The position numbers were made by a program, and so were the translations under genes. 64,000 bases of DNA from Hymenopellis radicata (Eukaryota; Basidiomycota; Agaricomycetes; Agaricales; Physalacriaceae). The stretch lies in assembly GCA_015501595.1 (NCBI GenBank), contig JADNRX010000068.1, positions 62,001 through 126,000 of the forward strand, given 5' to 3'. Below, piece after piece: positions 3,955 to 61,575 of this stretch (the stretch's first letter is position 1; the number at the start of each line of letters is the position of its first letter). The notes under the pieces are model-generated. The model worked only from the letters and a program-made list of their open reading frames with translations. It did no database searches and was not told the DNA's origin.

Positions 3955-4562
3955 CTATTGGAGACACACCCTTTTGCTAAACCATGGGCGTGTACCAATT
4001 TGAGGTCTGAGGTGTTGATATTGGAAGTATATCAGACTGCTGTGGGGCTCGAAGAGGGCGGCAAGTTTATTCTCATCCATCGATTCGAGTGTTAAATACT
4101 GAATGATTTCCTGCACCTCCGGAGGAGCATCTACATATGGCGCGCAGATGGCTCGCCTCTGCTCCTGTAGCAACTCGTCCTCCTTCCAGAGTTCATAAAT
4201 CAGATGAATGACTGCAAAAGATTGAGAGCGCACCTTGCGTTTAAGATGACGAGCGTAAGTTGCAGGCGATACCCATTTCCCTCCGTTACAGGTGTAATAT
4301 TCACAATCACAAAAGACTTTCTCGGTGGAAGCCTGTTTTGCGCGACGGTGGGATTTAGTTTTCCGCATGGCAACGTGACGGGAACGAGCAAGAGTGGAAG
4401 CGGACCCAGGTGTCCACTCTTTCCCTCTAACCTTCTTCGACGCAATATCCAGTGGAGCGCGCGCGTATAATTCCCGAGGGGTTGGAGGTAGCGATTGCTG
4501 AGTTCTCGCCTTCTCCAGAACGCGTTCTTACCATCTTTCAGATCCGTCAACGTCGCGCCCAT
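3955..4562 (-). pseudogene. Transposon protein N-terminal fragment (Cys/His-rich)
   Basis: The minus strand reads CDCEYYTCNGGKWVSPATY then ARHLKRK. This is a Cys/His cluster followed by a basic stretch, like the N-terminus of large basidiomycete DNA-transposon proteins (Plavaka/KDZ-like). The upstream frame (4562-4200) is out of register with it. No catalytic domain follows, since the sequence ends at the F-box-like relic. I read this as a short transposase remnant; the superfamily is a guess. Confidence 0.3.
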
Positions 4563-4692
4563 GAGGAATCAGAGGAAAAAGAACTTTGAGGTGGATAATT
4601 GGCACCACGCCTGGTCGATGTTGTCGTGAACCAGTACGTTGCCCGAATGAACATATTGTTTTGCAATTCACCATGATCTCAAGCTCGAGAAT

Positions 4693-5928
4693 TAGAGACT
4701 GCCACGGATCGTGAACCGGATCGATCCGCGATCCGTTTCACGGATATCCGTGGTCTCAAAGCCTTGACCGTGATCCGTCGTGCGATCCGGATCGCTACAG
4801 GATCCGATCCGTTAGTCTGATCCGATCCGCGGATCGTGGCACGGTTCAGACTCGCGGATATCCGTAGGTAGAACCATTTTTTTCGTCGCGGCGCGGTTCG
4901 CTCAAAGGAGCAAACCGCATACCGGCAACGAAAAATTGGTAGGGTAGTGGGGAGGGAAGATGGGGATGTGGGATCCGGCGGGTGGAACGCAAGCGGTGGG
5001 GCCGGCGGTGTCGCGGTGGGCAGATGATCGAACGAGTACACAAATTAACAGTCGTTAGCCAACAATAATGAAGAGAAAGCGTTGAATACGCACCTGGTTG
5101 CGTGGCGTCGTCTGCAGACGCGCCACGCCCGTAATCCCGCCACATCCGCTCTCCAGGCCTGCTCTGCGGCAAGACAGAGACTTCTCCCATCGTGGCATGG
5201 CCTCTTGCAGGCCGTCGTCGTCGTCGTTGGTCGCTGCTGCCCATTCGAGGGGCTTACGCGTCAAAGCTGGCGCGTTGCTAGGGCGTCGTGACCCAGCAAC
5301 GGCCTTGAGAGTCGTCCTAGCCCTCTTGTGGGGCATCCAGCGGGTGGTGATATCCTTGCTGCCTCGCCTGTGAGGGCTTACGCGGGTCGCGGGTCCAGCG
5401 CCGTTCGAAACACGTCGTCGCGAAGACAAGCGTGCAAGAAAGCCCAGGAACGTATCCATGGGCAGCAGCAGCCGGCGTGAAGCCGAACCGTGCCAAAAAA
5501 CCAAGAGAACAGAAAGAAAATAACTAGAATAGGCCCCAGAACCTCTTCTGGGGCCGACCAGCACGACGTCGCCGTCGTGCTGTGGTGGAGAGAGGCAGAT
5601 CGCAGCTGCACGATCGTTATCCGGCGTTTGCCGAGACGCTCGGCCAGCTCGGCGATCGCAGAAATTCTTTGGCAACGTCGTTTCTCAACGACGTTGCGCT
5701 TATTTAGATTCAAATAAATTCGTAAAATCACTAAAATTATGTCAGTAAGAGTACGGATCTTGCACGGATCGGTGCCACGGATATCCGTGTGCACACCAGC
5801 CAGACCGTGACCCGTGCCGCGATCCGGATCGCACGGATCGGATCGCATTTTTCCGATCCGATCCGCGGATCGGGTAGAGGATCGGGTGGCGGATATCCGC
5901 CGATTTACCCGATCCGTGGCAGACTCTA
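4693..5928 (+). mobile_element. hAT-type non-autonomous element, copy 1 (1236 bp)
   Basis: The element starts TAGAGACTGCCACGG and ends CCGTGGCAGACTCTA. It is flanked by a perfect 8-bp duplication, TCGAGAAT (4685-4692 and 5929-5936). An 8-bp duplication with TAGAG...CTCTA ends fits the hAT superfamily. Subterminal DNA is packed with CGGATC/GATCCG motifs on both arms (about 4707-4860 and 5760-5920). No transposase is encoded, so it is non-autonomous. It shares ends and several internal blocks with copies 2 and 3 but has diverged in the middle. It carries two copies of the GCGTAAGCCC hairpin motif (minus sense, 5250-5259 and 5374-5383). The long open frames inside it are not convincing genes. 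Confidence 0.93.
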
Positions 5929-6199
5929 TCGAGAATGTGCTCCTCAATGAAGGGTGGCGGGTCAAGCTGGGCAACTATGGGTTCACGCAGGAATTGGCAC
6001 GAGAGACAAGACCCAGAATGGCCCTTGGTATGCTCCGACTACGCTCGTCACTTCCTCTCCTCATGTCTCCCCACCATGCCTAAGAATTCGAAGGCCGTCT
6101 GGCCCATGTTGGCACTTCGCCCACATCGACAGCCCTATTGAGAGCAGTAAGTCGTGGATTTCTTGGGCTGCAGTTAAATAGTAACGACAATCGTTCGAA

Positions 6200-10621: not shown

Positions 10622-10760
10622 CATCAGCATGATTCATAAGCATTTGATGATAGCAGTACGATAGCAGTATTCGAAATCAGTAATCTAAGTACGACGATAG
10701 CAGTAATTCGAGAGCAGTAATAAGGATATGTAAGGTAAGTCATCAAGCATCTAGAGAAAC

Positions 10761-11143
10761 CTAACCAGTAGAGTATTCCTGTCCATCGAATGCAATGTTA
10801 AGCGGGTGGAAAAAGTTGGCAAAGGCGCTAGAATCTAGAGGATTCGAAGAAACAGGCGAATTAAGTAATTGCAGAAGCCATGGACTCCTCGTAACAATAA
10901 CAAGACTGGAACATGTTTTGAAGGTGATAACGCCTTGCGCACTATCAGACGCTTCAGAGGACGGATTTTCAAAGGAAATCTAAAAGTGTTTTTCAGTCTA
11001 CATATGATAAATAGAGATTGAACGAACACTGATAAGCCACGCTCTGTCCTTTGGTACGAGGATTGACCCAGTTGATGATCGCATGAAACACTCCATGCGG
11101 AAGATGTGATTCTCTGTCTCTTGATTGCCCCATGTCTCTGGAA
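10761..11143 (-). pseudogene. HECT-like gene, 3' piece (separated by the inversion)
   Basis: Reading leftward from the edge of hAT copy 2: TWGNQETENHIFRMECFMRS, STGSILVPKDRAWLISVRS, then two in-frame TAG codons about 24 bp apart, then SAQGVITFKTCSSLVIVTRS and a stop at 10761-10763. This is the C-terminal lobe of the HECT-like protein whose middle part lies on the plus strand at 12381-15383. The last codons of the middle part (IIPE) continue in frame into TWGN once the element is removed. The in-frame stops suggest decay at this end, or a very small unspliced insert. Confidence 0.68.
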
Positions 11144-12380
11144 TAGAGACTGCCACGGATCGTGAACCGGATCGATCCGCGATCCGTTTCACGGATATCC
11201 GTGGCCTCAAGTGCCAGACCGTAACCGTACTACGATCCGGATCGCCTACAGGATCCGATCCGTAGGTGATCCGATCCGCGGATCGGATCACGGATCTGAC
11301 TCGCAGATAATCGTGGGTGAAATGAGATTTTTTCGACGCGGCGCACAACACTCAAAGGAGTGAAGCGCATACCAACGACGAAAGGGAGGAGAATAGGGGA
11401 TGGGTGGTGATAAAGAGGAGAGGTGAAGGATGGGTGCTGATGCACAGGACAGATGGAGGCAGGGTGGCGTGCAGGAAGCTGCATTCACAGCTCATCTGCC
11501 CGTCAGCCCCACATCGACATCAGCGCCGCCTCACTGTGAGCCTCATCATAAGTGCCGTTGTCGGCGTCGCATAGACAAAGTATGAAAAACGCACCTGTTC
11601 ACGCGACGTCCTCCGCAGATGCGCTACGCGTCCGTAATCCCGTCTCTCCGGCTCTTGAAGCCTACCCAAGCAGCCGTCATCGTTCTACAGCCTCTTGAAG
11701 GCTGTCATCGTTGTTGGTAACTGCCTGCTGCCCATTCGGGGGCTTACGCGTCGACGCTGGCCCGTTGCTAGGGCGTCGTGGCCGTAGCAACGGCCTTTCC
11801 AGTCGTTCTTGCCCTTTCCTGGAGGATCCAGCTGGTGGTGGGCGTCGTCGCTGCTGTCGTGGAGCAGCACGGCAGTCGTCAAGATGGCATCTGCTGTCTT
11901 GAAGACAGGACAGACGACGCCGAAACGACATGAAGTCGTTTTGGTAGCCGAACGACATGAAGTCGATTCGGTACCCAGACGCGATTTAAAATCGCGTCTG
12001 GTGGCAGGGCGGCAGTGCTGGGAGACGGGGCAGAGCAGAGAGGAGCGACCAAGCGAGGTGGTGGTGGAAAGAAAGAGATCTTGGAGAGATCAGATGGTAT
12101 CGATTGCTCGGGATCAATAATAATTGATCCCGAGCAATCGAACTCGGAGTCTCGCAAGTCGACGACGACCGTGAAACCTTTCAAGGTCGTCGTTGACTTG
12201 CGCACCCCTCTGAGGGTACGGATCGTGGTCCGCGATCCGTACCCTCCAAGGCAGGACCGTAATCCGTGCCCCGATCCGGATCGCACGGATCGGATCGCAT
12301 TTTTCCGATCCGATCCGCGGATCGGGTAGAGGATCGGGTAGCGGATATCCGCCGTTTTACCCGATCCGTGGCAGACTCTA
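11144..12380 (+). mobile_element. hAT-type non-autonomous element, copy 2 (1237 bp)
   Basis: It starts TAGAGACTGCC and ends GGCAGACTCTA, in the same orientation as copy 1. The flanking octamers are CTCTGGAA (left) and CAAACCAG (right), which do not match each other but match the reverse complements of the two octamers beside copy 3. The interior is virtually identical to copy 3; the only difference I found is one C in a C run near 11740. It is packed with perfect or near-perfect inverted repeats, for example ATTGCTCGGGATCAATA facing its complement around 12120, and CAGACGCGATTT facing AAATCGCGTCTG around 11990. No transposase is encoded. Confidence 0.95.
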
Positions 12381-15300
12381 CAAACCAGCAGGCCGCGACG
12401 GGTAGTAATGGGCGCCATCCCATAAGGACAACTAATGTTCTTGCTACGCTGGGCCATCGGGGCAGAGCAAAGCAAGCTCTCGGAGGAGGTCGATCATCTA
12501 AAATGAGCAGACCCAGATTCCAATCACCTCAATACGACACGACCACAGGAATGTATCGACAACAGATTCGACTATGCATTCTGCCTCACTCTGTACGTGT
12601 TATCACACTCTTTTCATAAACAATGTCTCACGATTATTCAGGAAGGCACAATGTTTGGACTTGAGGATCCTTATCATGGCTCACCTCGTTTCCGGCCTAT
12701 CATGCGCATCTGGGACGCAAAAATCGAACAAATCGTGGATCTGTTTGCGACCTGGAATCTCTCGCTTATTCTGGACATCACCGTTCCCAATCTGACCAAC
12801 AATATATATCCATTGCTCTACAATCAACTATCATCCTTTCTCAATCATCATCATATCGGTCTAGGACCTGCCTGTTCCCCCTTTCCCATACCCAGTGCAC
12901 CATATTCTCCGTTTATCGTTCAGAAATTAGGAAAGCATCAAGCGCTTCTGGGTACAAAGATCAAAAGCGCCGATTTGCCCTCTCAAATATGCTCTTTGGG
13001 CGATTTAAACTCTATCGCTCAGCATGTCCCGATCGTTAAGAATGATATTCCATCAATTTTCATTGGTATGTCGTTTAATCGCTCGCATTCAACATTGGTA
13101 CTAATCATTATCGATAGGAACTGATCAACGACTTTCTGGTCCACCAGTAATACCATCAGATTATCGCCCTCACCCATGCTTTTCTTACCGTTTTCACGAT
13201 GCATACCAAGCGTTGTTGAATGTTGGAAGGTTTGAGTCTCACGACTGCTGGGAAGAATGCCCAGAAATCGTAGCTGAGCCTCCTTCTCAGACTGAGGATT
13301 CAAATCTGGATTGGGTACGTTATCCAACTTCTCTCTCAAGATTTCAATATTAATCATATTTTAGGAGCAAGAATATCAAAACCAAGCCTCTGAAACCCCA
13401 AGCTCGTTGTTCTCAACCCCAACTTCACCTTCAATATCCCTTCCAGACATCAGTTTAGAATCGAATTCCTTTTCCTCTCCACCATCGACCTCTGTCCCGC
13501 TGCCATCCTCCGTCCCGTCGGCAACTTCAGTCCCATCTTCCACTTCAGTCCCGTCGGCAACTTCAGTCCCGTCTTCCACTTCAGCCCCGTCTTCCACTTC
13601 AGCCCCGTCGTCCACTTCAGCCCCGTCGTCAACTCCTGTCCCGTCGTTCACTTCAGCCCCGTCGTCCACTTCAGCCCCATCGTCAACTCCTGTCCCGTCG
13701 TCGACTTCAGTTCCGTCGGCAACTCCTGTCCCATCGTCAACTTCAGCTATGCCATCGTTATTCTCAACACGACCATCGTTATTCTCAACACGACCATCGT
13801 CAACTTCAGCAACGCCATCGTCATTCTCAGCACGACCCTCATTTTCAGCTATGCCATCGTTATTCTCCATTCCATCATCATCGACAGATACGCCATCATC
13901 TTCAGCTACACCATCATTATTCTCCATTCCGTCATCGTCGACAGATATGCCATCGTCTTCAGCTACACCATCGCCATTCTCCATTCCGTCATCATCTTCA
14001 GCTACGCCATCTCTACAACAGACAAGACGTAGACCTGCACCGTTCCCTCTACGAACACCGCCTGTGCGTCGGTCAGAGCGCAATCAGCAAGGCTTGACCC
14101 TTGAAAACGATGGATTAGAGGAGATATCATCGAGATCCATAAACGCTCTACACGAGATCGGGAACTCTTCACAATGGCTACAGGCCGTACGAGACTCTTA
14201 CAGCGATAGTTCGGTGGCCCTGAGCATTCAAGCTCTTAATGTTACTAGTGCTGCACGCGCACTTGTTGTGGCACTGGGCAGTGTGTTCGCTGATGAAGCA
14301 ATTCCACGTATAGAGAATGCGGAGATTCGAACGTTCACGTATCATAATCTTCTTACGGGGCACCGGTTTTTCATGATGTATGCATCTCTACTTGTTTGAT
14401 CTGCAAATACTGATCTAGTTCTTAGTGGCCGCAACGAAGTCGGCGAGAACAACTATCGACATCACGCAGGCCACGGACCGGGAGTCGAGCGTGAAGTTAT
14501 ACGCTACGCCATTGAACATTTAGAAGAACTCCTCGGCGTCTCTCACATGTGGCAAGCGACAAATACCACGACCGGTCTCTTTTCGTGGAACTTCAAGCTA
14601 TATGATAACGATACGCGTAAAAGGATCGCATTTGTGACCGGCTCCCTGATGGCATTGCATCTAATAGTCCTGGGCGCCACAGCCTATCCCATCACACCAT
14701 ATTTGTATCTTTTAATGGTTTATGACTTCAGCACGCTTACATCCTCTATTCCCTTTCTCCGCTCCTCCACTATGCACGTCAATGGCTCTGAAAGTTTCAC
14801 GGCCTGGCCTACATTCCAGAATCGAAACAGTCCAGACCTCCAATGGACTGGCGACTCACCATTGGCTGGACTCATTGTCTCCTATTTATCCGGAACAGCA
14901 GCCAATGTATGTTCGTATCTATTGTTGCCTTGGCCAAGTCTGACGATCATTAATAGCCCGCTGTGCTCAAAAATTCTTCAGAAGAGGATTGGAATGAGGC
15001 AACGGAAAACATTGTTGCAAGCATCTTCTTCGGACAGCCCGTGGCATATCTTCTAAAGCGATCGACGGATGTGGAGATGTTACGAAAAGGTTTCGATATG
15101 CCGATTGGAGATGTGTCTCTCAAAAGGGTATGTTCTTTTCATCGATATTGTTCCAGTCCCTAACGTGAATATGTAGCTATTCTCTTCGACACACGCTCTA
15201 TCTGTTCTAGAAGGCTTATCGGGAGAGCGTGTTCGTGATATCGAGGACGTTCTTCAGCACCACATTGACATTGAGGATGCATCACGAGTTGGTAGTACGG

Positions 15301-15383
15301 GAAACTTATTCCGTGCTCACCTCTTCCAGTATCTTCGTGGTAAAGGTCATCCGTCCTCTTTGATTGGCAATATCATTCCAGAG
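12381..15383 (+). pseudogene. HECT-like ubiquitin-ligase-type gene, central piece
   Basis: A multi-exon gene body lacking both ends. Exons joined by short introns read GMYRQ...LCILPHS, then GTMFGLEDPYHGS (intron about 12592-12642), a block ending KNDIPSIFIG, then TDQRLSGPPVIPSDYRPHPC after an intron ending near 13120. A Ser/Thr/Pro-rich linker follows (13480-14010), then NNYRHHAGHGPGVEREVIRY, FSWNFKLYDNDTRKRIAF, and FLRGKG-like sequence ending SLIGNIIPE. The order matches an Agaricomycete family with a C-terminal HECT-like fold; HECT proteins transfer ubiquitin through a catalytic Cys, and I cannot confirm that residue here. The stop after IIPE is supplied by the TAG of hAT copy 3. Its true ends lie at 16622-17165 and 10761-11143 on the other strand. 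Confidence 0.6.
13480..14010 (+). repeat. Coding minisatellite, 18-bp units (Ser/Thr/Pro hexapeptides)
   Basis: Units close to CCGTCGTCCACTTCAGCC, coding SSTSAP-like hexapeptides, repeat from about 13500 to 13840. Degenerate longer units containing CCATCGTTATTCTC and CCATCATCTTCAGC follow. The frame stays open throughout. The linker lies between the N-terminal region and the HECT-like region and is probably disordered. Confidence 0.8.
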
Positions 15384-16621
15384 TAGAGTCTGCCACGGAT
15401 CGGGTAAAACGGCGGATATCCGCTACCCGATCCTCTACCCGATCCGCGGATCGGATCGGAAAAATGCGATCCGATCCGTGCGATCCGGATCGGGGCACGG
15501 ATTACGGTCCTGCCTTGGAGGGTACGGATCGCGGACCACGATCCGTACCCTCAGAGGGGTGCGCAAGTCAACGACGACCTTGAAAGGTTTCACGGTCGTC
15601 GTCGACTTGCGAGACTCCGAGTTCGATTGCTCGGGATCAATTATTATTGATCCCGAGCAATCGATACCATCTGATCTCTCCAAGATCTCTTTCTTTCCAC
15701 CACCACCTCGCTTGGTCGCTCCTCTCTGCTCTGCCCCGTCTCCCAGCACTGCCGCCCTGCCACCAGACGCGATTTTAAATCGCGTCTGGGTACCGAATCG
15801 ACTTCATGTCGTTCGGCTACCAAAACGACTTCATGTCGTTTCGGCGTCGTCTGTCCTGTCTTCAAGACAGCAGATGCCATCTTGACGACTGCCGTGCTGC
15901 TCCACGACAGCAGCGACGACGCCCACCACCAGCTGGATCCTCCAGGAAAGGGCAAGAACGACTGGAAAGGCCGTTGCTACGGCCACGACGCCCTAGCAAC
16001 GGGCCAGCGTCGACGCGTAAGCCCCCCGAATGGGCAGCAGGCAGTTACCAACAACGATGACAGCCTTCAAGAGGCTGTAGAACGATGACGGCTGCTTGGG
16101 TAGGCTTCAAGAGCCGGAGAGACGGGATTACGGACGCGTAGCGCATCTGCGGAGGACGTCGCGTGAACAGGTGCGTTTTTCATACTTTGTCTATGCGACG
16201 CCGACAACGGCACTTATGATGAGGCTCACAGTGAGGCGGCGCTGATGTCGATGTGGGGCTGACGGGCAGATGAGCTGTGAATGCAGCTTCCTGCACGCCA
16301 CCCTGCCTCCATCTGTCCTGTGCATCAGCACCCATCCTTCACCTCTCCTCTTTATCACCACCCATCCCCTATTCTCCTCCCTTTCGTCGTTGGTATGCGC
16401 TTCACTCCTTTGAGTGTTGTGCGCCGCGTCGAAAAAATCTCATTTCACCCACGATTATCTGCGAGTCAGATCCGTGATCCGATCCGCGGATCGGATCACC
16501 TACGGATCGGATCCTGTAGGCGATCCGGATCGTAGTACGGTTACGGTCTGGCACTTGAGGCCACGGATATCCGTGAAACGGATCGCGGATCGATCCGGTT
16601 CACGATCCGTGGCAGTCTCTA
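15384..16621 (-). mobile_element. hAT-type non-autonomous element, copy 3 (1238 bp)
   Basis: This is the reverse-orientation twin of copy 2, starting TAGAGTCTGCC and ending GGCAGTCTCTA on the plus strand. Flanking octamers are TTCCAGAG (15376-15383) and CTGGTTTG (16622-16629). These are the reverse complements of the octamers flanking copy 2, one each. It is one base longer than copy 2 (six Cs instead of five at 16021-16026). It carries the GCGTAAGCCC motif at 16015-16024 and the same set of internal hairpins. Confidence 0.95.
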
Positions 16622-17165
16622 CTGGTTTGTAATAGTTCCATCGCGTGGGACGTTGATGGGACGTGTGGTGACGAAGGGCGTACTGAACGATGCAGTTGGC
16701 TCAAAGGCAGATGAGGGAATGGGGAATGGGTTTTTCACGGTGCCGGTTGATGGCAGCCGTGCGACGGTCGTTTGCTGATCCGGATGGCTCCGAGTTAGAC
16801 GGTGGCTGCCAGGGAGTGGCGGATGGTGCTTGATTATTTGGAACCTCGCTTCTCGGACCAGGAAGCTCTGAATGCGCAAGCCATAGTTGGCCACAGTTTG
16901 GGCGCTGGCACGCGCTCATGGGAGTGTGATTCCCCGCCTATCAATACCGTAAGCGCAAGAAAAAACCCAGGCCAAGACAACTTACGTGGTAAAAGCCGAT
17001 ACAGACCCCTGTGATACCGGATTTTGCGGGAGGATTAGAGTGCGGCGCTGGCTGCGCATAATGGTCCTCGTCGCTATGACCACAATAACAATTTGGGGCG
17101 TTACGTGGATCAATAATGTAAACGACGCATGGGCAGTCGAAATGAACACATGAGCGTGTGGCCAT
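16622..17165 (-). pseudogene. HECT-like gene, 5' piece (separated by the inversion)
   Basis: I chose the start at 17165 (MATRSCVHFDCPCV), which opens a small Cys/His cluster: C-x3-C-x-C, then CYCGHSDEDH. After an intron near 16935-17000, a Pro/Ser/Thr-rich exon runs HPDQQTTVARLPSTGTV and ends RPINVPRDGTITNQ at the edge of hAT copy 3. The next in-frame residues, QAATGSNGRHPIRTTN, lie at 12387-12440 on the plus strand beside copy 2. One frame ambiguity remains in the exon around 16860. An upstream in-frame Met at 17270 is possible but adds a hydrophobic stretch I think is untranslated. Confidence 0.6.
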
Positions 17166-17734
17166 ACGATCAGAAAGAGCGAAAAAAGATACAGATAAAA
17201 AGAGAGGAAGGAAGGTTGGTGGTGCAAAGGCAAGATGGCGCGTATTTGTTTGTGGCGTATTACGGATCACGTGAAGATGTTAGGGGTTTTTCGCGATAGA
17301 TTGGCGACTACTCGAGCTCTGCATACTTGTCCCCTTGGTATTCAACAATTTCACCATCTTCTAGCTCTATTATCAGCCCCAATAAACCTATTCTCCTCTA
17401 CTGAACTCATGCGTCCTCCGCTAGATGGACGTGACTTGAGATGAGTCGGCATTCGCCTGCAATGGGGCTGTCCTCAGATGCATTAATCACTGTTTTCACC
17501 GCACACGGCCTCAAGCTTCAGGCCGAATGATACATCGAGTATGCGCATCACTTCTGAGGGACAAAGATACTCTCAATTGATGGTGGATGGCAACGAATAC
17601 ATGAACAATTTGATAGGCATATGTAGATTTGCGAATACTTATCCCTCAGAGACCTCCCTAGCATTTCCAACTGTCCGGATATCTCGTTCCTGGGAGTTTC
17701 ACTCTTAATCATCGCGGGTTGAAAGCAGTGATCT

Positions 17735-37359: not shown

Positions 37360-39455
37360 TTACTGTTTAGTATAGCACTCCATCCAGCTTTTGCCAATAC
37401 ATGCTTCTGAAAAGTCAACAGTAAGATCGCCAAGGCGTGAAATGACAAGTTGACAGTACGGGGTACGAAGGGCAGTGACCAATGTAGATGGAAGCCATAG
37501 AAGTCTTTCTTGCTGAAGAGAGACCAGCCAGCCATCATCTTGAACACTCCAAGCTTGTGGACTTGCAGAAGCTGAGGAAAATGTCAGTGAAGAACATAAG
37601 ATCAAAGACAAGTGATAATAGAGTAACATTTTATTAAAAAAGCAAGATTGCTCACATAATACAGAGGTAACAGAATGGCTATGGCTATTCCATAGGCATA
37701 CTGTTCTATCACCTGAGGCAGAGGTGATTGAATCTGTGTAGCCCTCCAGCATCAGCTTCTCCTTACTTATCTGCATATTCCACACTCGCACTGTCTTATC
37801 ATTTGAAGCAGAAACAATGTGCTGGCCATCATGTGAGAATGAGGCAGAGTTGACCCTATCTGTATGCCCCTTCAGTATCAGCTCCTCTTTAGCTGTCTTT
37901 ACATTCCACACCCGCACTGTCTTATCACTTGAGGCAGAAACAATGTGCTGGCCATCATGTGAGAACAAGGCAGAGATGACACAGTTTATATGTCCCTCCA
38001 GCCTCAGCTCCTCTTTAGCTGTCTTTATATTCCACACCCGCACTGTCTTATCACTTGAGGCAGAAACAATGTGCTGGTCATCATGTGAGAATGTAACAGA
38101 GTTGACTGCATTTGTATGCCCTTCCAGTATCAGTTCCTCCTTGCCCGTCTTTGCATTCCACAATCGCACTGTGTTATCATCTGAGGAAGAGATAATATGC
38201 AAGTCATCATGTGAGAATGAGGCAGAGGTGACCTGCTTTGTATGCCCCGTCAGCTTCAGCTCCTCCTTAGCTGTCTTTACATTCCATACTCGCACTGTAT
38301 TGTCACCTGAAGAGGAGACAATATGCTGGCCATTATATGAAAATGAGGCAGAGATGACCCAATCTGTGTGCCCCTCCAGTATTACCTCCTCCTTGCCTGT
38401 CTCTACATTCCACACCCGTACTGTCTTATCATCTGAGGAAGAGACAATATACCGACTATCATATGAGAATGAGACAAAGATGATTCCCCTTGTGTGCCCC
38501 TTCAGCATTAGCTCCTCCTTGCCTGTCTCTGCATTCCATATCCGTACTATCTTATCATCTGAGGAAGAGACAATGTACTGGCCATCATGCGAGAATGAGA
38601 CACAATTAACCCTATTTGTATGCCCCTCGAGTATTAGTTCCTCCTTATCTATCTCTGCATTCCATACCTGCACTATGTGGACACCTGAAGAAGAGACGAT
38701 GCACTGGCTATTATGCGAGAATGAGGCAGAGACGACTCCTTGTGGATGCCCCTCTAGGATCAGCTCCTCCTTGCCTGTCTCTACATTCCACATCCGCATT
38801 GTGTTGTCAGATGAGGAAGAGACAATGTGCTGGCCATCAGGTGAGAACGAGGCAAAGTAGACCCAATTTGTATGCCCCTCCAGCCTCAGCTCCTCCTTGC
38901 CTGTCTCTGCATTCCATACTCGTACTGGCTTATCCCATGATGTAGAGACAATATGCTGATCATCATGTGAGAATGAGGCAGAGGTAACCTGATTTGTGTG
39001 CTCCTTCAGTCTTAGCTCCTCCTTGCCTGTCTTGGCATTCCACACTCGTACTGTATTATCACTTGAGGAAGAAATAATATGCGAGCCATTATGTGAGAAT
39101 GAGGCAGAAGTAACCTGATTTGTATGCCCTTCCAGCCTTAGCTCCTCTTTGCCTGTTTTGACATTCCATACCCGCACTGTGTTGTCATGTGAGGAAGAGA
39201 CAATATGCCAGCCATCATATGAGAATGAGGCAGAGGTAACCACATTTGTATGCCCTTTCAGCATCAGCTCTTCCTTACCTATTTCTACATTCCACACTCG
39301 CACTGTTTTATCTTCTGAGGAAGAGACAATGTGCCAGCCATCATGCGAGAATGAGGCAAAGGTGACCACATTTGTATGCCCTTCCAGCATCAACTCTTCC
39401 TTACCTGTTTCTGCATTCCACACCCGCACTGTTTTATCTTCTGATGATGAGACAA
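37360..39455 (-). pseudogene. NLR gene, 3' part: WD40 array and C-terminal tail
   Basis: Fourteen consecutive WD40 repeats of 42 residues (126 bp), each like HTNxVxSASFSHDGQHIVSS followed by SxDKTVRVWN, run from 39455 to about 37770. A shortened repeat (SITSASGDRTVCLWN) and a tail (GWLVSLQQERLLWLPSTLVT) follow. Repeats are highly similar, and variable residues cluster around the turns. This is the ligand-sensing C-terminus of a fungal NACHT-WD40 NLR (HET-E/HET-D type). The first blade is split: its beginning lies at 44583-44660, across the 5.1-kb element. The reading frame is open over 680 codons, so loss of function was recent if it occurred. Confidence 0.88.
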
Positions 39456-39959
39456 CATCAGGAAACAGGTCACCAGCCTAGAGGAGTGCTGAGTCAACCA
39501 CGGTGAATATGGTTGCCTAGAGGACATCAGGGTGTGAACTCTGTCCGGTTAACTTTGGCAAAGGTTCAGGTCCAAACCTTCCTTAAGGATGCCTTGAGTC
39601 TAACTCAAGATCACTCCAGTCATGCTCAAGTCATACTCAAAGCGGCTTGTGCTACCCCCAAACTAGATATATGTAACTTAGGTTCAACATAAGGTGACCT
39701 ATAGCAGCTCAGCACAACATAAACCCTAATCAAATCAGTTAAGGAAAACAGGCAAAGCTTCCGAAGAGCTTAAAACTCAAGAAATAACATAAAAGATTCA
39801 AAATGCAGTGTATTCGAATAGATTGGTACATACACATTAATACCCAAATGTAAAGAATGCCATAGTAATAGTACTACAGTTCATACAGTATCAGAATACA
39901 AAACAGCATAGACACTCAGCCAACTACTTAGCCTTACCATGACAGGAAGCCACATTGAT

Positions 39960-50757: not shown

Positions 50758-53700
50758 ATGCGCAGAACTGTTCAACAATTCCCAAATCCTGGTCTGTCTC
50801 GGTGGTTTCACTGTTCTCCAACCGCTACCGCCCAAGCGCAACGAGCGCGACCGAGCATCCCCAACATCCTCCACAGACCGACGCCTACCAAAACTGCGCA
50901 GAAAGGTGAAGAGCAAGAACAGCAAGTTAAGACAGTGCCCAAACATGGTAAGCAGTCAACTAAAGCAATGTTGAGATGGCCGCCTTACCTTTCCTTCCAG
51001 TCAAACGAAATGCGCTCGGAGTACAGATGTTGTCGCGGACAATCCACGAACAGGTCTTCAAAAACTGCTCTTTCCCATCTCCCCCACAAATGTACACCAA
51101 TATCGCCCTCGAACACCTTGCCGCACACGAACTCGATCCCAGTCAATCCTCAAACTTACCCTCCACCGAATTCACATTACCTCCTCTGCAGGGCAACAAC
51201 CTCCTTGAGCACTTTTACCGTATCGGTACGGCCACCGCAGATCCTTACTATGACTTTGCGCATACCTTTGCCGAGTCAGAGTTGCCTCCCCGGCCAGACA
51301 ATTTCGACCTTCAGGCTGGCTGGACAAAGTATATCTACAACAAGGATGGATCCAGCTACTCTGAACATGTCGCATACCCTGTGCACAAAGGCTCTCCCGA
51401 AGAGATGCTCTGTTTCGATGTCGAGACGCTGCCCAACTACCATACATATCCCATCATGGCGTGTGCGGCCTCGCCGAACGCGTGGTATGTCTGGATATCG
51501 CCGTGGCTCTTAGACCCCTCCTCCACCTCCCGGAACACCTCATTCCTCTGGGCCCTACAGAGGTTCCTCGTGTCGTCGTTGGTCACAATGTTTCTTACGA
51601 TCGTGCTCGTATTCTCGAGGAATACCATGTCAATGGTACCCAGAACCGTTTCCTCGACACGATGGCGCTGCATGTCGCCGTGAAGGGTATTTCATCTCAC
51701 CAACGTCCTGCGTGGATGAAGCATCGGAAGAATAAAGAAGAGGACAAACAGCGGCGGGAGGAGGCTGTGGAGGCTATAGTCACCATGCTCCAGGACATCC
51801 AAGAGCAGTTGAACGATATGCATAAAGAGGCACAGGACGGGACACCTGCTGATGAAGAGAAACGCTCTCAGCTCACGCGTCTCTGGCAGGATCTCCAAGA
51901 ATCATTACCCATCTTACAGACATCCCTCGAGTCTGACACTTTCACTCCTGGGCCGCCTCCCAGTAGCGCTGAGGAGAGTGACGAAGTCGATCGAAAGAGT
52001 TGGGAAGATCTCACCGCCATGAATTCCCTTGTCGATGTCGCCAAACTCTATTGCAACATAGACATCTCGAAGGAAATCCGTGGCGACTTTATGACCTCCA
52101 CTCCAGAAGAGATTCTCGCTGGCATCACCGACTACCTTAGTTATTGTGCCTCGGACGTCTACGTGACTCACCAGGTGTACAAAAAGGTCCTACCGGGTTT
52201 CTCGTCAAGCTGTCCGCACCCTGTGAGCTTCGCTGGGATGCTCACGATGGGAAGTGGATTTCTGCCCGTTAATGAGCAATGGGAGGCTTACTTGGAGAAA
52301 GCGGAAGCGATATGGAATAGATTGGAAAAGGGTGTAAAGGACGGATTGGAGTCTCTTGCGAGAGCCGCGATGGCGTCCTTCAAGTTAGACGAACCGAATC
52401 AGTTTGACGACGATCCTTGGTTGAGTCAATTAGACTGGTCTCCAAAAGCTGTTGGGAAAACTCGTGGTCTTTCGGACCCTAACTCGGAAGCTGCTGTTGA
52501 TGTACGTTGTATTCTCTCTGTTTCTTGAGCTTTGTTCATGGTATTGCAGGATGTAGCGCCGAAGGAGGAAAAATCAGCTGACCCTATCTGGTACTCCGAA
52601 GTTCTCGCAGACCCGCTTTCCAAGAAGTCGTTAGAGCGTCATCTCCCTCTCCTACTCCAGCTGTCGTATCAAGGGAATCCTCTCTTATTCACACCCAAGG
52701 AGAAATGGCATTACATGTCGCCAGGTGACGATGGTGAACCCCAAGTCACCCGCCTTCCCACCTCTAAAAAGGGCATGAAAACATCTACTCTTCTCAGTTC
52801 TCGTCACGCGTTGATCCTGCTCAATAGCGGGGAGATGGACTCGTGCGATGTTGAGTTGGCTAAGCGTGTTTGCGCTGGCGAAGCCTCACCCGACGTGGTT
52901 GTCGCTTTGGCCAAATCGGTGCTCGAGCGAGGTCGGACTGACGAAGATGCTTGGAGTCGCCAGTTGGACTGGAAGGAGACCGATGCGGATGTAGCGAGGA
53001 CGGTGCCCCCAAGGCGAAGCGAAAGACCAAGCCCAAAGTCGCAAAGCCGCCGTCGGTTTATTGGCCCAAGTGGTTTTGGGATTGACGAAACCGAAGAAGG
53101 GCATGCCCCCGGTTCTCTAGATATCACGATGAAGAACCGCTTCGCTCCCCTTTTTCTCAAGCTAGCATGGCACGGTTACCCCGTCTATCATTCGCGCGAA
53201 CACGGTTGGACCTTCCGTATTCCACCCCCGCTGATGGCCAACCACTCGATAAATTCAAGCACTTGAAGCCGCTTAGTTTCATTGACGATGCGGACACAAA
53301 ACTCACTGCACTCTTGGAGAACGGGTATACATTCTACAAACTCCCGCACAAGGACGGCGAGACGGCCAATGTTGGGAGCCCGCTTGCGAAGAGCTTCTTC
53401 GGGTATGCGTCTGACGGTACCCTCCGCAGTGGTGCTGGGGAGGCAGCAAAGGAGATGGTCGACGTCGGCGTGCAGTGCAGCTACTGGGTCAGTGCGCGTG
53501 ATCGTATTCTCAACCAGATGGTCGGGTGGCAGGATCTCAAGGGCAAGAAATGGGACATGGGGCTTCCCGCCGAGCAGGATCCTGCGACTACGGCGGACGG
53601 CGAGCTGCCCACAAAGTGGGGTATGATCATTCCTCAGGTCATCACCATGGGCACCGTTACACGTCGTGCTATAGAGAAGACGTGGTTGACTGCGAGCAAC

Positions 53701-54993
53701 GCCAAGAAGAACCGCGTTGGGTCGGAGCTGAAGGCGATGGTGCGCGCGCCGCCTGGGTACTCGCTCGTCGGCGCCGATGTCGACTCTGAGGAGCTGTGGA
53801 TCTCGAGCTGTATGGGCGACGCGCAGTTCGGGTTGCATGGCGCTACTGCGATCGGCTGGATGACGCTGGAGGGTACGAAATCTGCGGGCACCGATCTCCA
53901 TTCCAAGACGGCTAGCATCCTGGGTATCTCTCGCGACCAGGCGAAAGTGTTCAACTACTCGCGTATCTATGGTGCTGGGATGCGTCATGCGATGACACTT
54001 CTGCAGCAGAGTAACTCGAATTTGTTGCTTGAGGACGCTCAGAAGCTCGCGCAGAACCTTTATACCTCGACGAAGGGCAAGAACACTCATCGGACTGAGA
54101 TGTTTGGGAGGAAGTTTTGGTATGGCGGCACGGAGAGTTATGTCTTTAACAAGCTCGAGGAGATTGCGCTCTCTGATATGCCACAGACGCCTGCTTTGGG
54201 CTGTGGAGTGACTCACGCTCTATCGAAGGCCAATCTTCCTGAAGGGTTCGGTTCGGATTACATGCCTTCCAGGATTAACTGGGTTGTGCAGTCCTCCGGT
54301 GTCGACTACCTCCATCTCTTGATCGTCTCCATGAATCACCTAATCACGAAGTACGACATCCAGGCTCGTTATCTCATCTCAGTGCACGACGAGCTTCGCT
54401 ATCTGGTAAAGGATGAAGACCGCTACCGCGCCGTTCTCGCGCTACAGATAGCCAACCTGTGGACGCGGAGCATGTTCGCGTATCGATTGGGGATGGACGA
54501 CCTCCCTCAAGGCGTCGCGTTCTTCTCCGCCGTCGACGTTGACCATGTCCTCCGTAAGGAAGTCGACATGCCCTGCGTAACGCCTTCCCAACCCAACCCC
54601 ATCCCCCCAGGAGAATCCTTGAACATCAGCCAGGTCTTGGAGAAAACCAACAACGGGTCGCTCTGGGCAGACGGCCGCCCGATGACGACGACGACGTCTG
54701 GCGCTTGGGCGAAGCTCGCCGGATACGGCGAGCCAGACTGTTTGGTGCATCGTGCGCCGAACCCGGCGTGGCTCCGCGCGCAGGCGACGAACGACTTGGG
54801 GGAGATCAAGCATCTCGCTAAGCAGGTTAAGGGCAAGAAGCAGAAGAAGGATGTGGCTGAGGAGAAAAAGAGTGATTATGTGCGACGCAAGTCGAGCAGG
54901 AGGGGCGCTGGTATTGGGAACGGCGAGGATGTGGACTGGTCGGAGATGATTGATCAGATTTATCAGTCTGGTCATCAGCTGAAGCTGTGGTAA
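50758..54993 (+). CDS. MIP1: Mitochondrial DNA polymerase gamma catalytic subunit
   Basis: Start 50758 gives a targeting peptide (MRRTVQQFPNPGLSRWFHCS). Intron 50948-51000 joins PKH to VKRNALGVQML. Exonuclease motifs: MLCFDVETLP (ExoI), VVGHNVSYDRARI (ExoII), YLSYCASDVYVTHQVY (ExoIII). Polymerase motifs: VGADVDSEELWISS (A), FNYSRIYGAGMRHA (B), ISVHDELRYLVK (C). A second intron joins SEAAVD to DVAPKEEK near 52500-52550. The frame shifts at about 51530, 53010, 53085, 53110 and 53227. Each is repaired by one extra base, four of them in C runs, and the protein is otherwise highly conserved. I take these as probable sequence errors, not decay. It replicates mitochondrial DNA. Confidence 0.93.
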
Positions 54994-55589
54994 ATTATTG
55001 TTGTTTATGTTTATATGCTTTTGTTCTTGCGCGTAGAATACAATCTGCTATTCGTTCCATTGGGATTGTTGAGGCGTAGTGTCATTCACACGAGCGGTTG
55101 CTGGGGTCAGTAGGACAGGAACATTCCACGCTGGATACTGTGGATTCGTGAGTTCTGTACCGTACAATGAGTCCAGTGTGCGGAGACGAGTTGGTTAGGG
55201 ATCGTAGTATGCGTGGCGGACGCGTAGAAGTACTAAGTGAGTGCGCAGCATCTATTTCCTAAAACACTGCTCCAGCAATTTTGAACTCGAACAGCTCGGA
55301 GGTGAAATTTCCAACTGTTTTCCAAACGTGGACACGGGCACGTGACACCAACCATCTTTGCAAACGATTGTCATTGTCCACAATCTGTCCACAAGTTATT
55401 GCCATTGTCAACCGTCCACGCGATTTCCATTGTTCGCAGCTAGTCCACCCTGTACGGACTAACCACGAGGCGTTCATTGTATCCCACATTTGGTAACAGC
55501 CACTCGCGATTGTCCTGCATATAAATACGGCAGCCATGCACGCTCTTCTCTTCTTTATCGACTTTTTCCCCCTGCCTTTGCCACCCGAT
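54994..55589. other. Intergenic region
   Basis: This lies between POLG and the first FunK1 gene. I see no coding signal or repeat of note. Confidence 0.5.
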
Positions 55590-58205
55590 ATGCCCAAGTG
55601 CAAACGGTCACGGTCGCCCTCGCCGAGTGACGCCTTCAGCGCCGAAGGCGTCACCAATCGTATCCCTTCCTTGCAGCGCCCGCCTATTACCCCTCGTCCA
55701 ATGCGGTCGTTGCCAAAAAAGCCCTTGCAGACCCCGGGAACAAAGGCGCCTCCGGCCAGTTGAACTTTGCCGAGAGTTATCATCGTGCATCTGTCGATGT
55801 GTACGTGGACGAAGACCTGCAGTCCTCTCGCGTCTTCTTCCCCACCGACGTCTTTCTCCACGTCCTCCTTGGTCTGCCCAAGGACTGGGAGTCAGACGAA
55901 CCAATGCAATCTCTCATCACTTCCATCATGAAAACTACTGCCTATAGCAAAGCACGAGCGGCTTTCAAGCACACCTGCGTTGGGGAGGTCAAGCACGAGT
56001 CCCAGTTGTACGACGATTACATCGATATGTGCAACGCTGCTACTCGTACCATCGCCAAAAACGATGGGCAAAAGGACACGTTGTGGAGCTATCGCCAGGA
56101 TCACAACGCTCTTCTGGGCTCTAGCGCCAAGCTTACGCCTGATGTGATGTCTGTCTCCGAAAAATTATGGAAGGGATCTGGCAATAAAAAGCGCACCGGT
56201 CACGGTCCAGAGTATCCTATCGGTTGGCCCCAAACTCAGATTGTTCAAGACATGAAGGCGGGCTTGCGTTCCCTCGACCGTGGCTCGACGTGTCCATACA
56301 CAATTATCGGGCTTGGTATGTCTCTTTTCGTCTATGTCATTGTTTTCTGACCCGTTACATAGACGGCTTGGATCCCAGAGACTGGAACGAACTCGTGCAT
56401 GCTGTTGAAAAAGCCGAAGAGCGAGAAGGCTTGTCGAAGGACTTCAGTAACAACCTACGAAATGCGAGAAAGCGCCAGCTGCAGTCCTCCCGGAGGACAC
56501 GCGTGTCACGAAACGGTCCAAATCCCACGTTCCCCTCCACGCTATTGCGGCCTCCGTTGGGCAGGCTCCGTAGCCCCTACCATAAAGGCGAGCGATGATT
56601 CGGGAGACCGCCACTCCGTCTCCCTCCAGTGTGCACGATACGCTCTAGAAGTCCTGTCCAGTGCCGGCTTTCGATCTCACAGTTTCGGATTGCTCATTGG
56701 ATTGAACGAAATCCAAATCCTCTATTACGACCGTTCTATCATCGCGGTCTCTCAGCCTTTCCAGATGGTAGACCTCGAAGTGCGGTATCGTACCCAATGC
56801 CTGACCGAACGTCGCTTCGTCGCGGTCTTGATTTCCCTCCAGCGCGCCACCTTGGCCCAGCGAGGCATTATGGAGTACTTGATGCCAGACCCATTTTTGG
56901 AAGTTTATCGGAACTATACCGAAGACATGGCGAAAGATCCCAAGACGCTCTTTATTGGGCGCCAGATCAAACTACAGGTCAACGGCAAGTCCGTCTTCGT
57001 GACGCTAGGTCGCATTCTCATGCGCCAACCGGGAATCATTGGCCGGAACACCTGCGTCGTTGAGGCCACGTCTGACGCGTGGCCGGGCAAGGAGCTGGTT
57101 GTCAAGATCAGTTGGCCTGCATCCTCCCGGGTACCCGAGAATGAGTTTGTGGACAACATTACCGAAAGTGTCGAGGCGGAAGGAGAAGCGGCGGCATGGG
57201 TTTTGGATCACATTCCGACTGTATTGCACTCTCAGGATTTCCCTCTCCCGCCAGATAGTCCTGGAAGCAGGCTCCGGGAATACCTCGCAGGCCCCGACGT
57301 CAAGTTCGCTGACGACAAAGCATTTGATTACGAACTACGGGTGTGTCGAGTGAGCGTCCAGGAACGCCTTCAACGTCTGGACACTTTGACGAAGCCGGAG
57401 GATTATGCGCAAGTGCTTTTCGACGTTTTGCAGGGTACGTTTCTCACGTTTCGAATATTGTCTAATGCTGACTGAATTGCAGTACACCGTTGGATTTACG
57501 ACTACCCCCGTATCATGCACCGTGATCTAAGTCAAGGAAACATCATGTGGCACGTACGCAAAGGTCGCATTTGTGGTGTCCTCAACGACTTCGATTTGTC
57601 CTCTTATCGAGGCGCGTCCGGCGGCTCCTCCAAGCAGCGTACGGGAACTCGACCCTATATGGCTCACGAACTTCATGAAACGGACGATAACGGAGACCCT
57701 CCCGTCCATCTATACCGTCATGACTCGAGTCAATCTTCTACATTATCATTCTTCTTACCTGTGCCTATGCACTAAGGACGGAACCCAGCGATTCTGGCTC
57801 TTATCTCGACGCCATCAAATCCTCTCCCTACCGATTATGGCTGTCCATGACGGACACCCAGTTGTATGACAAGAAATACGCAATTATTTCGAAGTACAAG
57901 GCGAGCTCTATTCCTGTCCAACATGACTCCTTCAAGGGCTTCGCCGTTTGGATCAAACAGCTCTACACCCGCTTTGAGAAGGGCATGAGGAATAGGGCCG
58001 ACATGGAACGGGAAGCTGCACGCTTAGACGACGAGGACATGGATGTAGACGACGATCCGCCAGCAGTTGCGGTCTTTGACGAGGCAACGCTGGGTGGTGC
58101 TGTTAGCTATGATTCCATCTTGGCTATTATGAAGACCTTTGGGAGGAAAGCAGTGGCGAGAAGCGGCCGCTGCAAATGATGTATCCGGTCTCGAAGAAGG
58201 ATTAA
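55590..58205 (+). CDS. FunK1-type fungal protein kinase, copy 1 (frame interrupted)
   Basis: Start 55590 (MPKCKRSRSPSPSDAFSAEG). The N-terminal region runs SNAVVAKKALADPGNKGASG and LNFAESYHRASVDVYVDED. The kinase domain includes IGRNTCVVEAT, ELVVKISWPAS (ATP-binding Lys), IMHRDLSQGNIMWH (catalytic Asp, about 57520), VLNDFDLSSYRG (DFD instead of DFG) and RTGTRPYMAHEL. It then breaks after HLYRHD, where a C is missing relative to copy 2. It resumes LWLSMTDTQLYDKKYAIISK and ends LQMMYPVSKKD at 58205. Further one-base shifts are likely near 55660 and 56560. FunK1 kinases are a basidiomycete-expanded family of unknown substrate. Disruption may be real or technical. Confidence 0.78.
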
Positions 58206-58399: not shown

Positions 58400-59130
58400 A
58401 GCCACCATCTCTACTCGTCCTCGTCCTCATCCTCACCCTCACCTCATCCTCACCCTCATCCTCATACGTCTTGATCTTGATAGCCGCAACGCGATTGTCC
58501 GAATTCCTCTTTACATGGACGATGTATCCTCCGTCGTCAACAGAGCCTCCAAGACCAACGTCAGTCACAAACGGAGTCTTGCGTACAAAGGACTTACAAA
58601 TAACCCCTCCTGGAATCGCAGTGCATCTCGACGTACCCAAGTCCGATAGAAACTCTAGAATTGCATCCGGCGGGTCACCTCCTTCGATTTTAAGGGGTTC
58701 AGAATCAATGGCGTCCTTCGCGATAGCGATCAGAGACCCAGAGTCGAGGCTACACACCCCAAGTATTCCCATTTTCCTCCTGATTCGTCTGGGTGAGCCA
58801 CGGGAGACGGATTGGTCCAATTCACAGAGCCCTCGCCCACCCAGTGCATAGTGACACTGAAAATGTCCTCATTATCATCATTAGAAGCGCTCATCCAAAC
58901 TCCTAGAGCAACATTTTTGAGGACAATCTCAAAGTCCAGACCGTTCTTTGACAAATGGGTATCGCCAATGAGGATGTCAGAATCATTCTTGACCTGTACA
59001 CCTCGTTAGTACATTGAATAATCCCAAACGCAAAGCAGTCACCTCAAAGATACGGTGTTCTGATGTTTGATTAAGTCTATCCACGATATCTTGGATGTGT
59101 TTATCGTGTCCACTTCAGAACTCTGCGCAA
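58400..59130 (-). CDS. Unrecognised protein with acidic C-terminus
   Basis: Minus-strand exons read DDIALAQSS (about 59130) and HIQDIVDRLNQTSEHRIFE (alternative frame). After an intron ending CAG near 58995 come KNDSDILIGDTHLSKNGLDF, VALGVWMSASNDDNEDIF and HPDESGGKWEY. A one-base shift near 58765 leads to LGVCSLDSGSLIAIAKDAID, ILEFLSDLGTSRCTAIPGGV, VGLGGSVDDGGYIVHVKRNS and an acidic GAGGATGAG-type microsatellite (about 58405-58460) that probably encodes the end. I do not recognise the family; the DDGGY block faintly recalls small DUF4241-like proteins. It lies between two FunK1 copies on the opposite strand. Confidence 0.45.
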
Positions 59131-59847
59131 GAGCAATATCGTCCGGCATTCAAGGTGGTACACGGCGGGGTGCTTCGCGCCGGCGCCCTCTGCTGGTACG
59201 GTTCTTATACAAGTCTACATAGATCTTCTCACGACACGGCGTCTTGCCACTTGGCCGTCTTACGCATGACGCCGCTGTTGAACATTGAAGTGATGATGGT
59301 CCAGAGCAAGTCACAAGCAGTTCGATCGTTGAACCTCTTTCACACCATGAGCACTGCATTGGGCGCGTTCCTACTTAGTTGATCTAGGGCTCTCGTAGCG
59401 TGTGTAAAATAAAGTATCAAGGTGTCGTTGAAAGTACCAGTAAGGGTATACATGTTGCTCAACTGCGTGTAAATCCGCGAAGGATCAGGCACCAGCCTCT
59501 AGTTGGGATGAGTTGTTCTCTGGATCTAATTGATCTCAACCTTAACGTTCAACGTTCAACACGCACAATAGATGTGAAATCTGTTGTCAAGCACGTGGCG
59601 CACACGTCGCTTCTTCACGATCTCCATGTCCACTGTTCCTCCTTTTTGGCAAAGCTCAACTGTTCAAGTGCGCGCTGATCTTTCTTCGTTGGTTTCCACC
59701 TGCTCTTGTGCCACTTCAGCGCCCACCCTCGGCGCTCTCGGCGCTTTGGTAAAAGCAAGGTATCCGAGTCTGGGAACGTGTAGTATTTGATCGTCTACGC
59801 GGCCATTGTAACGCGCCTAAGGCCAGCCACCGATAATACCTACCTGG
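59131..59847. other. Region without a recognisable gene
   Basis: Overlapping open stretches on both strands (for example plus 59095-59382 and 59400-59678) show no conserved motif. This may be what remains of the first part of FunK1 copy 2, but I cannot align it. Confidence 0.3.
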
Positions 59848-61109
59848 TTGACTGGCACTGAGTTGATGCCAGACCCATTTTTGGAGGTGTATCGACACTA
59901 TACCGGCGAGGGCATGGCGGAAGATTCTAAAACACTCTTCAGTGGACGACACATCAAACTGCAGGTCGGCGACCAATCGGTCTTGGTCAAGCTAGGCCGC
60001 ATCGTTATGCGCCAAACGGGGGTTATTGGCAGAAATACATGCGTTGTCGAAGGAACGTCCGCTGCGTGGCCGGGCAGGGAGCTGGCCGTCAAGATCAGCT
60101 GGCCCGCATCTTCCTGGGTACCCGAGAACACCTTCGTGGATGAGATCAAGAGAGCGGCGGAGGCACGGGAAGATGCGGCCTGGGTTTTGGATCATATTCC
60201 GACGATATTACATGCTGAAGATTTCCCTCTCCTGCCAGATAGTCCTGGTTACAAGCTTCGGGAGTACCTTTCGGGTCGGGATGACAAGTCTTTTGACGAC
60301 AAGGTGTTTAACTATGAACTTCGCGTCTGTCGAGTGACCGTTCATGAGCGCCTTCAACCTCTGGATGCCTTAACGACGCCGGAGTATTATGCGCAAGTCA
60401 CTTTCGATATCTTTCAAGGTATTTTCTCGCCGCTTTAAAATGCTGACTTTCGTTGTAGTGCACTGTTGGATCTACGACCAACCTCGTATTCTACACCGAG
60501 ATCTTAGCCAAGGAAACATCATGTGGCACCGCCGCAGAGGTAGAATCTGCGGTGTCCTGAACGACTTTGATTTGTCCTCTTATCGAGACAAGCAGGACGC
60601 TTCCTCCAAGCAGCGTACCGGAACTCGACCCTATATGGCTCTTGAGCTCCATGAACTAGATGACGATAGAAACCCTCCCGCTCACCTTTATCGTCACGAC
60701 CTCGAGTCGATCTTCTACATTATTACTATTCTTACCTGTGCCTCTGCACTACACACGAAACCCAGCGATTCTGGCTCTTATCTCGTCCCCGTCAAATCCT
60801 CTCCCTATCGACTATGGATGTCCATGACAGACTCGGAGTTGTATGCCAAGAAACACTCGATGATCTCACGCTTCGACGCGCTCTCCATTCCTGTCCCAGA
60901 TGATTCCTTCAAGGACTTTGCTCCTGGACTACGACAGCTACACAAACTGTTTGCGACGGGGATTTACAAGATGCCTGGTGCCTCACTTTTTGGCACAGAA
61001 GACGACGTTGGGTGGTGCCGTCACTTATGCCGCATTTTTGGACATAATGAAAACCTTCGGAGGGGTTGCTCTGGAGGTCGTGTATCCCGTTTCTAAGAAG
61101 GAGGATTGA
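59848..61109 (+). pseudogene. FunK1-type kinase, copy 2 (5'-truncated)
   Basis: Close relative of copy 1 from LMPDPFLEVYRHYTG onward: IGRNTCVVEGTS, ELAVKISWPASSW, an intron after FDIFQ (about 60419-60459), WIYDQPRILHRDLSQGNIMW, VLNDFDLSSYRD, RTGTRPYMALELHELD and HLYRHDLESIFYIITILTC (the block broken in copy 1). The end FGGVALEVVYPVSKKED (stop 61107-61109) needs a one-base shift near 60995. The roughly 300 N-terminal residues of copy 1 are absent upstream. Catalytic residues (Lys, HRD Asp, Asn, DFD) are present, so the kinase core could be expressed if a start exists at 59848. Confidence 0.72.
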
Positions 61110-61575
61110 TATATGTACAAAAATGTTTACATACTCTACGCAACTCAGACTGGACACACAAGAACAATTCGAGTGTGCGTTACTACTCAAACTCGCGGAC
61201 AAAGTCAGCAGAAGTATAATAAGGCGGACAAGTTTAGATTGGATTCTCAAGTGTCGCAACTATCATAGGTACACTGGAATCCCGGCGCATGTACGAAAGT
61301 TGCATTACAGTACCCTTAGAAAAGCCCCTTGTAGCATTAAGAGTGGTTTCTGAGTTACCGCCTAATGTTTTTTTGGTTGATACGGCGGCGAGGACAACTA
61401 ACCGCTCTGAGCCTCACAATGCCACTTAACCCCCAGCTTAATAATAATCGGTAAACCAGTACGCTCGACAAGGAGACTCAAGACCCAAGATGGAATTCAA
61501 AAGAGCACAATACAGACAGCAGATATCAAAAGATCTATGGTCATAAACGATCGTGCGTCATATTGTTCATTATCA
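61110..61575. other. Intergenic region
   Basis: Convergent 3' ends of FunK1 copy 2 and the MATE gene. No gene or repeat recognised. Confidence 0.5.

Follow-up and report, generated by a model that had tools for sequence, protein, structure and literature searches.

The window analysed here is a stretch of 64,000 nucleotides from the mushroom Hymenopellis radicata, corresponding to bases 62001-126000 of contig JADNRX010000068.1 in an assembly of 75.5 Mb and 1405 contigs (GCA_015501595.1). It contains what appear to be three pieces of one intron-rich gene, the two outer ones on the minus strand and the middle one on the plus strand, separated by two copies of a small transposable element lying in opposite orientations (Table 1).

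Table 1. Coordinates of the interrupted gene, the two inverted elements with their flanking octamers and a further element of the same family, in window positions
Feature	Position	Strand	Details
Probable C-terminal gene part	10761-11135	-	Opposite strand to the interval today
Octamer x, on the left of copy 2	11136-11143	+	CTCTGGAA
Copy 2, putative non-autonomous hAT-type element	11144-12380	+	1237 bp; termini TAGAGACTGCC / GGCAGACTCTA
Reverse complement of octamer y, inner, right side of copy 2	12381-12388	+	CAAACCAG
Inverted interval, putative gene middle	12383-15383	+	Seven exon pieces, 901 codons without stop
Reverse complement of octamer x, inner, left side of copy 3	15376-15383	+	TTCCAGAG
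Copy 3, the element of copy 2 reversed	15384-16621	-	1238 bp
Octamer y, on the right of copy 3	16622-16629	+	CTGGTTTG
Probable N-terminal gene part	16630-17165	-	Exon from ATG 17165 to 16986; 48-nt intron 16938-16985
Copy 1, member of the terminal inverted repeat family of copies 2 and 3, for comparison only	4693-5928	+	TCGAGAAT at 4685-4692 and 5929-5936

The inverted stretch measures 3003 bp when taken from 12381 to 15383, and the exon pieces of the interval are separated by six introns of 48-52 nt whose splice sites were picked by eye. The C-terminal part reads as 36 codons (11028-11135), a 48-nt intron in line with the intron sizes of the interval (10980-11027), and 72 codons followed by a stop (10761-10979). 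In the N-terminal part, the sequence beyond the intron continues into the breakpoint. A long Ser/Thr/Pro-rich, repeat-like stretch occupies positions 13480-14010 in the middle of the interrupted gene. Homologs of the middle piece were sought at E ≤ 0.001 with residues 560-901 (7997 candidates scored) and with residues 45-300 (809 candidates), and none was found; Pfam returned no family for the 901-aa piece or for its last 390 residues. A single sub-threshold Pfam match of the in-frame tail (E 0.15) and two matches among solved structures (E 1.1 and 1.4) were not used. Compared with its own genome, the middle piece matches itself and one other place within the Ser/Thr/Pro-rich part (E 7e-4), while the tail has only its self-match and no paralog. 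A HECT-type C-terminus, which the tail presumably resembles, found support from none of the tools and is not claimed. The interval and the neighbourhoods of the breakpoints (10622-11143 and 16622-17293) gave self-matches only in the 75.5-Mb assembly, very common words being skipped, and it therefore offers no second allele for comparison.

Other features were recorded in the same window. Repeats in register every 126 bp extend from 37606 to 39543 in 14 copies sharing 60-83% identity with the reference copy; they lie in a minus-strand ORF of 705 aa, and the repeat units resemble those of WD40 proteins. Two direct repeats about 78-79% identical and lying about 2976 bp apart (57477-57986 and 60453-60963) perhaps represent a tandem gene duplication. 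The ORF at 53086-54993 is DNA polymerase gamma-like, with best two fungal matches of 86% and 83% and with Termitomyces, Auriscalpium, Pleurotus, Gloeophyllum, Galerina and Suillus at 70-74% among the 120 matches listed, in keeping with an Agaricomycete.

The family to which copies 2 and 3 belong is defined by its ends, TAGAG(A/T)CTGCCACGGATC, which form short terminal inverted repeats at both extremities. The terminal inverted repeats of hAT elements have the form YARNG, with which these termini agree. With at most one mismatch allowed, 54 such termini were encountered genome-wide and the reversed control pattern gave none. Setting aside the 11 of the 54 termini that have no partner on their own contig, 22 places have both ends on one contig, including C202, for which one end came from a separate search and was read by eye. 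Perfect 8-bp duplications are present at 17 of these 22 two-ended places (13 from the main scan, to which C721, C929, C556:25423 and C202 were added). The duplication at C607 matches in seven of eight bases and one duplicate at C1389 carries a small insertion; at C658 the two ends lie 8 kb apart with unrelated flanks, a doubtful span that may reflect a misjoin or a genuine translocation. The short terminal inverted repeats and the prevalence of perfect duplications fit the hAT type that the initial annotation had assigned to the copies, and we file copies 2 and 3 as putative non-autonomous hAT-type elements from these sequence characters. The C658 relative, whose 3' end is doubtful, contains a stop-to-stop ORF of 438 aa on the other strand, 275 bp inside the same 5' terminus, that matches the hAT dimerisation domain PF05699 (E 1e-07).

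Three octamers were each found as a hAT-end duplication common to two contigs: ACTTGAAT at C658:17428 and C593:1785, ATGAGGGA at C19:283 and C9:3323, and TATCCCAC at C238:7339 and C647:10228. Such sharing could come from contigs that break within elements, from misjoins, from haplotypes or from translocations.

Copies 2 and 3 carry mutually exchanged target duplications. Written in the orientation of the element E, copy 2 is flanked as CTCTGGAA[E]CAAACCAG and copy 3 as CAAACCAG[E]CTCTGGAA; this reciprocity, like the four octamers themselves, had been described in the initial annotation and was recovered letter for letter. All four joints are base-exact. The alignment of the two copies contains no substitution over 1237 bases, their sole difference being the length of one run of G (five or six). 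For any one pair of elements, simple arithmetic puts the chance of two independent 8-mer matches at about 4^-16. Elsewhere in the window, octamer x occurs at 34780 and, reversed, at 4184, and octamer y at 31560, in each case as a single occurrence away from element ends. Among the 22 two-ended places of the family, reciprocal exchange is confined to copies 2 and 3. A second hAT family (termini TAGGGTT..), for which 24 of 48 termini are unpaired, has perfect duplications in 10 of its 12 two-ended places and reciprocal exchange in 0 of 12. Copy 1 displays the normal state, as had been proposed, with the same octamer on either side; in the alignment of 16 copies nothing matches it at more than 71.3% identity, and it therefore represents a separate insertion.

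Inverted pairs of hAT sequences also occur on other contigs. In C556, two 7.3-kb members of the second family (50802-58111 and 58737-66045) form an inverted pair with about 0.6 kb between the arms, which are 99.88% identical; this is a like arrangement of inverted near-identical hAT copies in the same assembly. Arm 2 is flanked by a perfect duplication and the flanks of arm 1 are unmatched (CTCTCGGC / GTGGTGCC). The pair was tested for exchange and its duplications are not exchanged; because of the unmatched flanks of arm 1, it is not a clean precursor of the state seen at copies 2 and 3. In C1229, both arms of an inverted repeat of 99.5% identity (54212-56587 and 58973-61340) contain a fragment of hAT transposase.

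The reading frames of the interrupted gene provide a second view of the ancestral order. When the interval is turned round, one frame stays open across the N-terminal junction, with 98 codons ahead of the joint and 76 beyond it; the other two frames reach only 26/4 and 37/11 codons. At the C-terminal junction, the common frame is open for 69 codons before and 45 after, and each of the three frames stays open below this joint, for 45, 46 and 99 codons. As the DNA is now arranged, the last-exon frame of the interval reaches TTCCAGAG and then encounters the TAG at the edge of copy 3; past copy 2, on the minus strand, this same frame resumes right after the same octamer. The frame above copy 3 also meets a TAG at once at the element edge, while the frame of the tail extends 69 codons into copy 2 and the first-exon frame of the interval about 40 codons into it. 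The frame leading from putative exon 1 through the obvious intron stops near 16.70 kb and differs from the one crossing the N-terminal junction. This frame change in the N-terminal part (16630-16937, minus strand) could reflect an unseen intron, an older lesion or a sequencing error. Codon-usage scoring placed the expected frame best in all four pieces of interval and tail that were scored, with a margin of 0.01 or less in two of the four; it was indecisive in the N-terminal pieces, and the scoring as a whole was therefore set aside.

With the interval turned round, long open frames thus line up across both junctions. One junction singles out a frame and the other does so less clearly, which makes the support moderate. 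That the three pieces form one gene is supported, not proved, and both insertions appear to lie within that gene. The octamers, rather than the reading frames, carry the case: the exchanged duplications bear out the earlier proposal that the interval once lay in the other orientation, and the frames lend it moderate independent support.

The best explanation, which we hold tentatively, is that two inverted hAT copies were followed by a crossover inverting the 3003-bp interval. Two copies of one non-autonomous hAT element would have entered one intron-rich minus-strand gene in opposite orientations, at sites about 3 kb from each other, each insertion creating its own 8-bp duplication, x (CTCTGGAA) for one and y (CTGGTTTG) for the other. 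A crossover between the identical copies would then have turned the interval, swapping the inner member of each duplication and leaving the gene split in three, with its ends on the minus strand and its middle on the plus strand. The exchanged octamers, the perfect duplications at most places of the family and the frames rejoined by turning the interval all argue for this course of events, and the exact joints are those expected of homologous exchange. Other points tell against it. The identical copies have no informative sites, so that proof of crossover by chimerism would be invisible, and the same sequence must have inserted twice in one gene, yet the next best relative of copy 2 after copy 3 is only 71.7% identical (16 copies aligned, of 22). 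Other recent pairs among the 16 aligned copies of the family are 98.5% and 97.8% identical.

The same arrangement could have been reached in one step by hybrid element insertion on sister chromatids, which we regard as unlikely, though closest to the crossover in standing. Starting from a single original element, at x or at y, the replicated copy would have transposed with one end from each sister chromatid into a site 3 kb away, and this single step would have yielded the inversion together with another copy and another duplication. A token model returns the order L x E y' M' x' E' y N for this process and for the crossover alike, and the sequence alone cannot separate the two. The identity that this process predicts between the copies is what the alignment displays, and the lack of another close copy among the 16 aligned favours it by parsimony. 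Its lack of deletion or duplication fits the exact octamers and the open frames, a fit to these features rather than to a sequenced ancestor. In the Galileo work, identical flanking copies are the expectation of hybrid insertion and chimeric copies mark crossover (PMC2775673), and alternative transposition of the maize hAT elements Ac/Ds makes both inversions and sister-chromatid products (PMC8225341). Identity of neighbouring copies is nevertheless also expected from a local jump or from gene conversion, and the inverted C556 pair is nearly identical without exchange. Hybrid element insertion is a rarer reaction than ordinary local transposition, and work in yeast indicates that an identical inverted pair 3 kb apart should flip easily by recombination. 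Because identical neighbours also arise in these other ways and such a pair should flip readily, the crossover is ranked first. Of the initial interpretation, the hAT type, the exchange and the ancestral orientation stand, whereas crossover is not singled out as the sole mechanism, hybrid element insertion, which that interpretation had overlooked, giving the same order.

Alternatively, the inversion might be an assembly artefact, the real DNA having normal duplications and the 3-kb interval having been placed backwards between the two 1.24-kb repeats. The copies differ only in homopolymer length, so short reads could not order them; for three other hAT elements the two halves of the duplication lie on different contigs, which makes some joins at such elements uncertain, and C658 spans two ends with unrelated flanks. 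Against this, no N occurs in the window or in the 82 loci inspected (282 kb, overlaps included), the 7.3-kb inverted repeat of C556 is carried within one contig, and contig C1062 contains direct repeats of 3.6-3.8 kb that are 99.7-99.8% identical. Long repeats held inside contigs suggest reads longer than 1.24 kb, or clones, and a flipped assembly is improbable, less likely than a real inversion. Least credible by far is a transposase cut at both inner ends, after which the released 3-kb interval was joined again in reverse. The elements would then stay in place with their inner octamers swapped, but such a reaction requires two like ends (3' with 3'), and the excision of hAT elements tends to leave small footprints in the cut flanks, yet all four joints are base-exact.

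We infer that the flip lies in the organism, that the event was a crossover and that it was recent. The lack of substitutions between the copies, the four intact octamers and the 901 open codons of the interval point to a young inversion, although the identity of the copies could also result from gene conversion or from consensus collapse.

Inversions linked to hAT elements, exchanged duplications and alternative transposition have all been described before (PMC2775673, PMC8225341, PMC12368964, PMC9674265). The Galileo inversions of Drosophila buzzatii, for which both crossover and hybrid insertion are described, resemble the present case in having opposite copies of a cut-and-paste element at both breakpoints with exchanged target duplications. 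They differ in that Galileo belongs to the P superfamily and makes 7-bp duplications, whereas copies 2 and 3 are of apparent hAT type, and in that the Galileo copies are chimeric and uninverted chromosomes were sequenced, whereas here the copies are identical, the inversion spans 3 kb and the assembly shows the locus in the inverted order only (PMC2775673). Maize Ac/Ds shares with copies 2 and 3 their putative hAT superfamily, the 8-bp duplications and inversions made through two element ends; however, reversed-ends transposition in maize loses the inter-element fragment (PMC8225341). The present locus has lost nothing and its two duplications are exchanged, which fits the same-site (hybrid element) case or a crossover. 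Non-autonomous hAT elements, in this instance hAT-derived MITEs, have also been proposed to cause inversions in Atlantic cod by ectopic recombination, but the breakpoints there consist of tandem arrays and the inversions are large; the terms TSD and target site duplication are absent from the main text of that article (PMC12368964). Protoclones of another mushroom, Marasmius oreades, underwent an inversion at two MarorhAT-10 copies about 2.5 kb apart; unlike here, these copies were head-to-tail and the middle sequence was deleted (PMC9674265). No report of a fungal hAT inversion with exchanged target site duplications was found in the open-licence papers searched. The added feature of the present locus is that both insertions apparently lie in one gene, whose frames record the ancestral order.

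Exchanged duplications inside a gene document, to the exact base, a transposon-mediated inversion and the order that preceded it, and the order read from the duplications can be checked against the gene's own frames. A small non-autonomous element can in this way break a gene more thoroughly than insertion alone. The absence of substitutions between the copies makes the event look young, and strains may still carry earlier states that would tell a crossover apart from alternative transposition in one step; natural inversions seldom offer this choice. If hybrid insertion were the true course, a single transposition across sister chromatids in a mushroom would have made the copy, the duplications and the inversion together. 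The identical inverted pair would also let the middle of the gene flip back and forth through later recombination.
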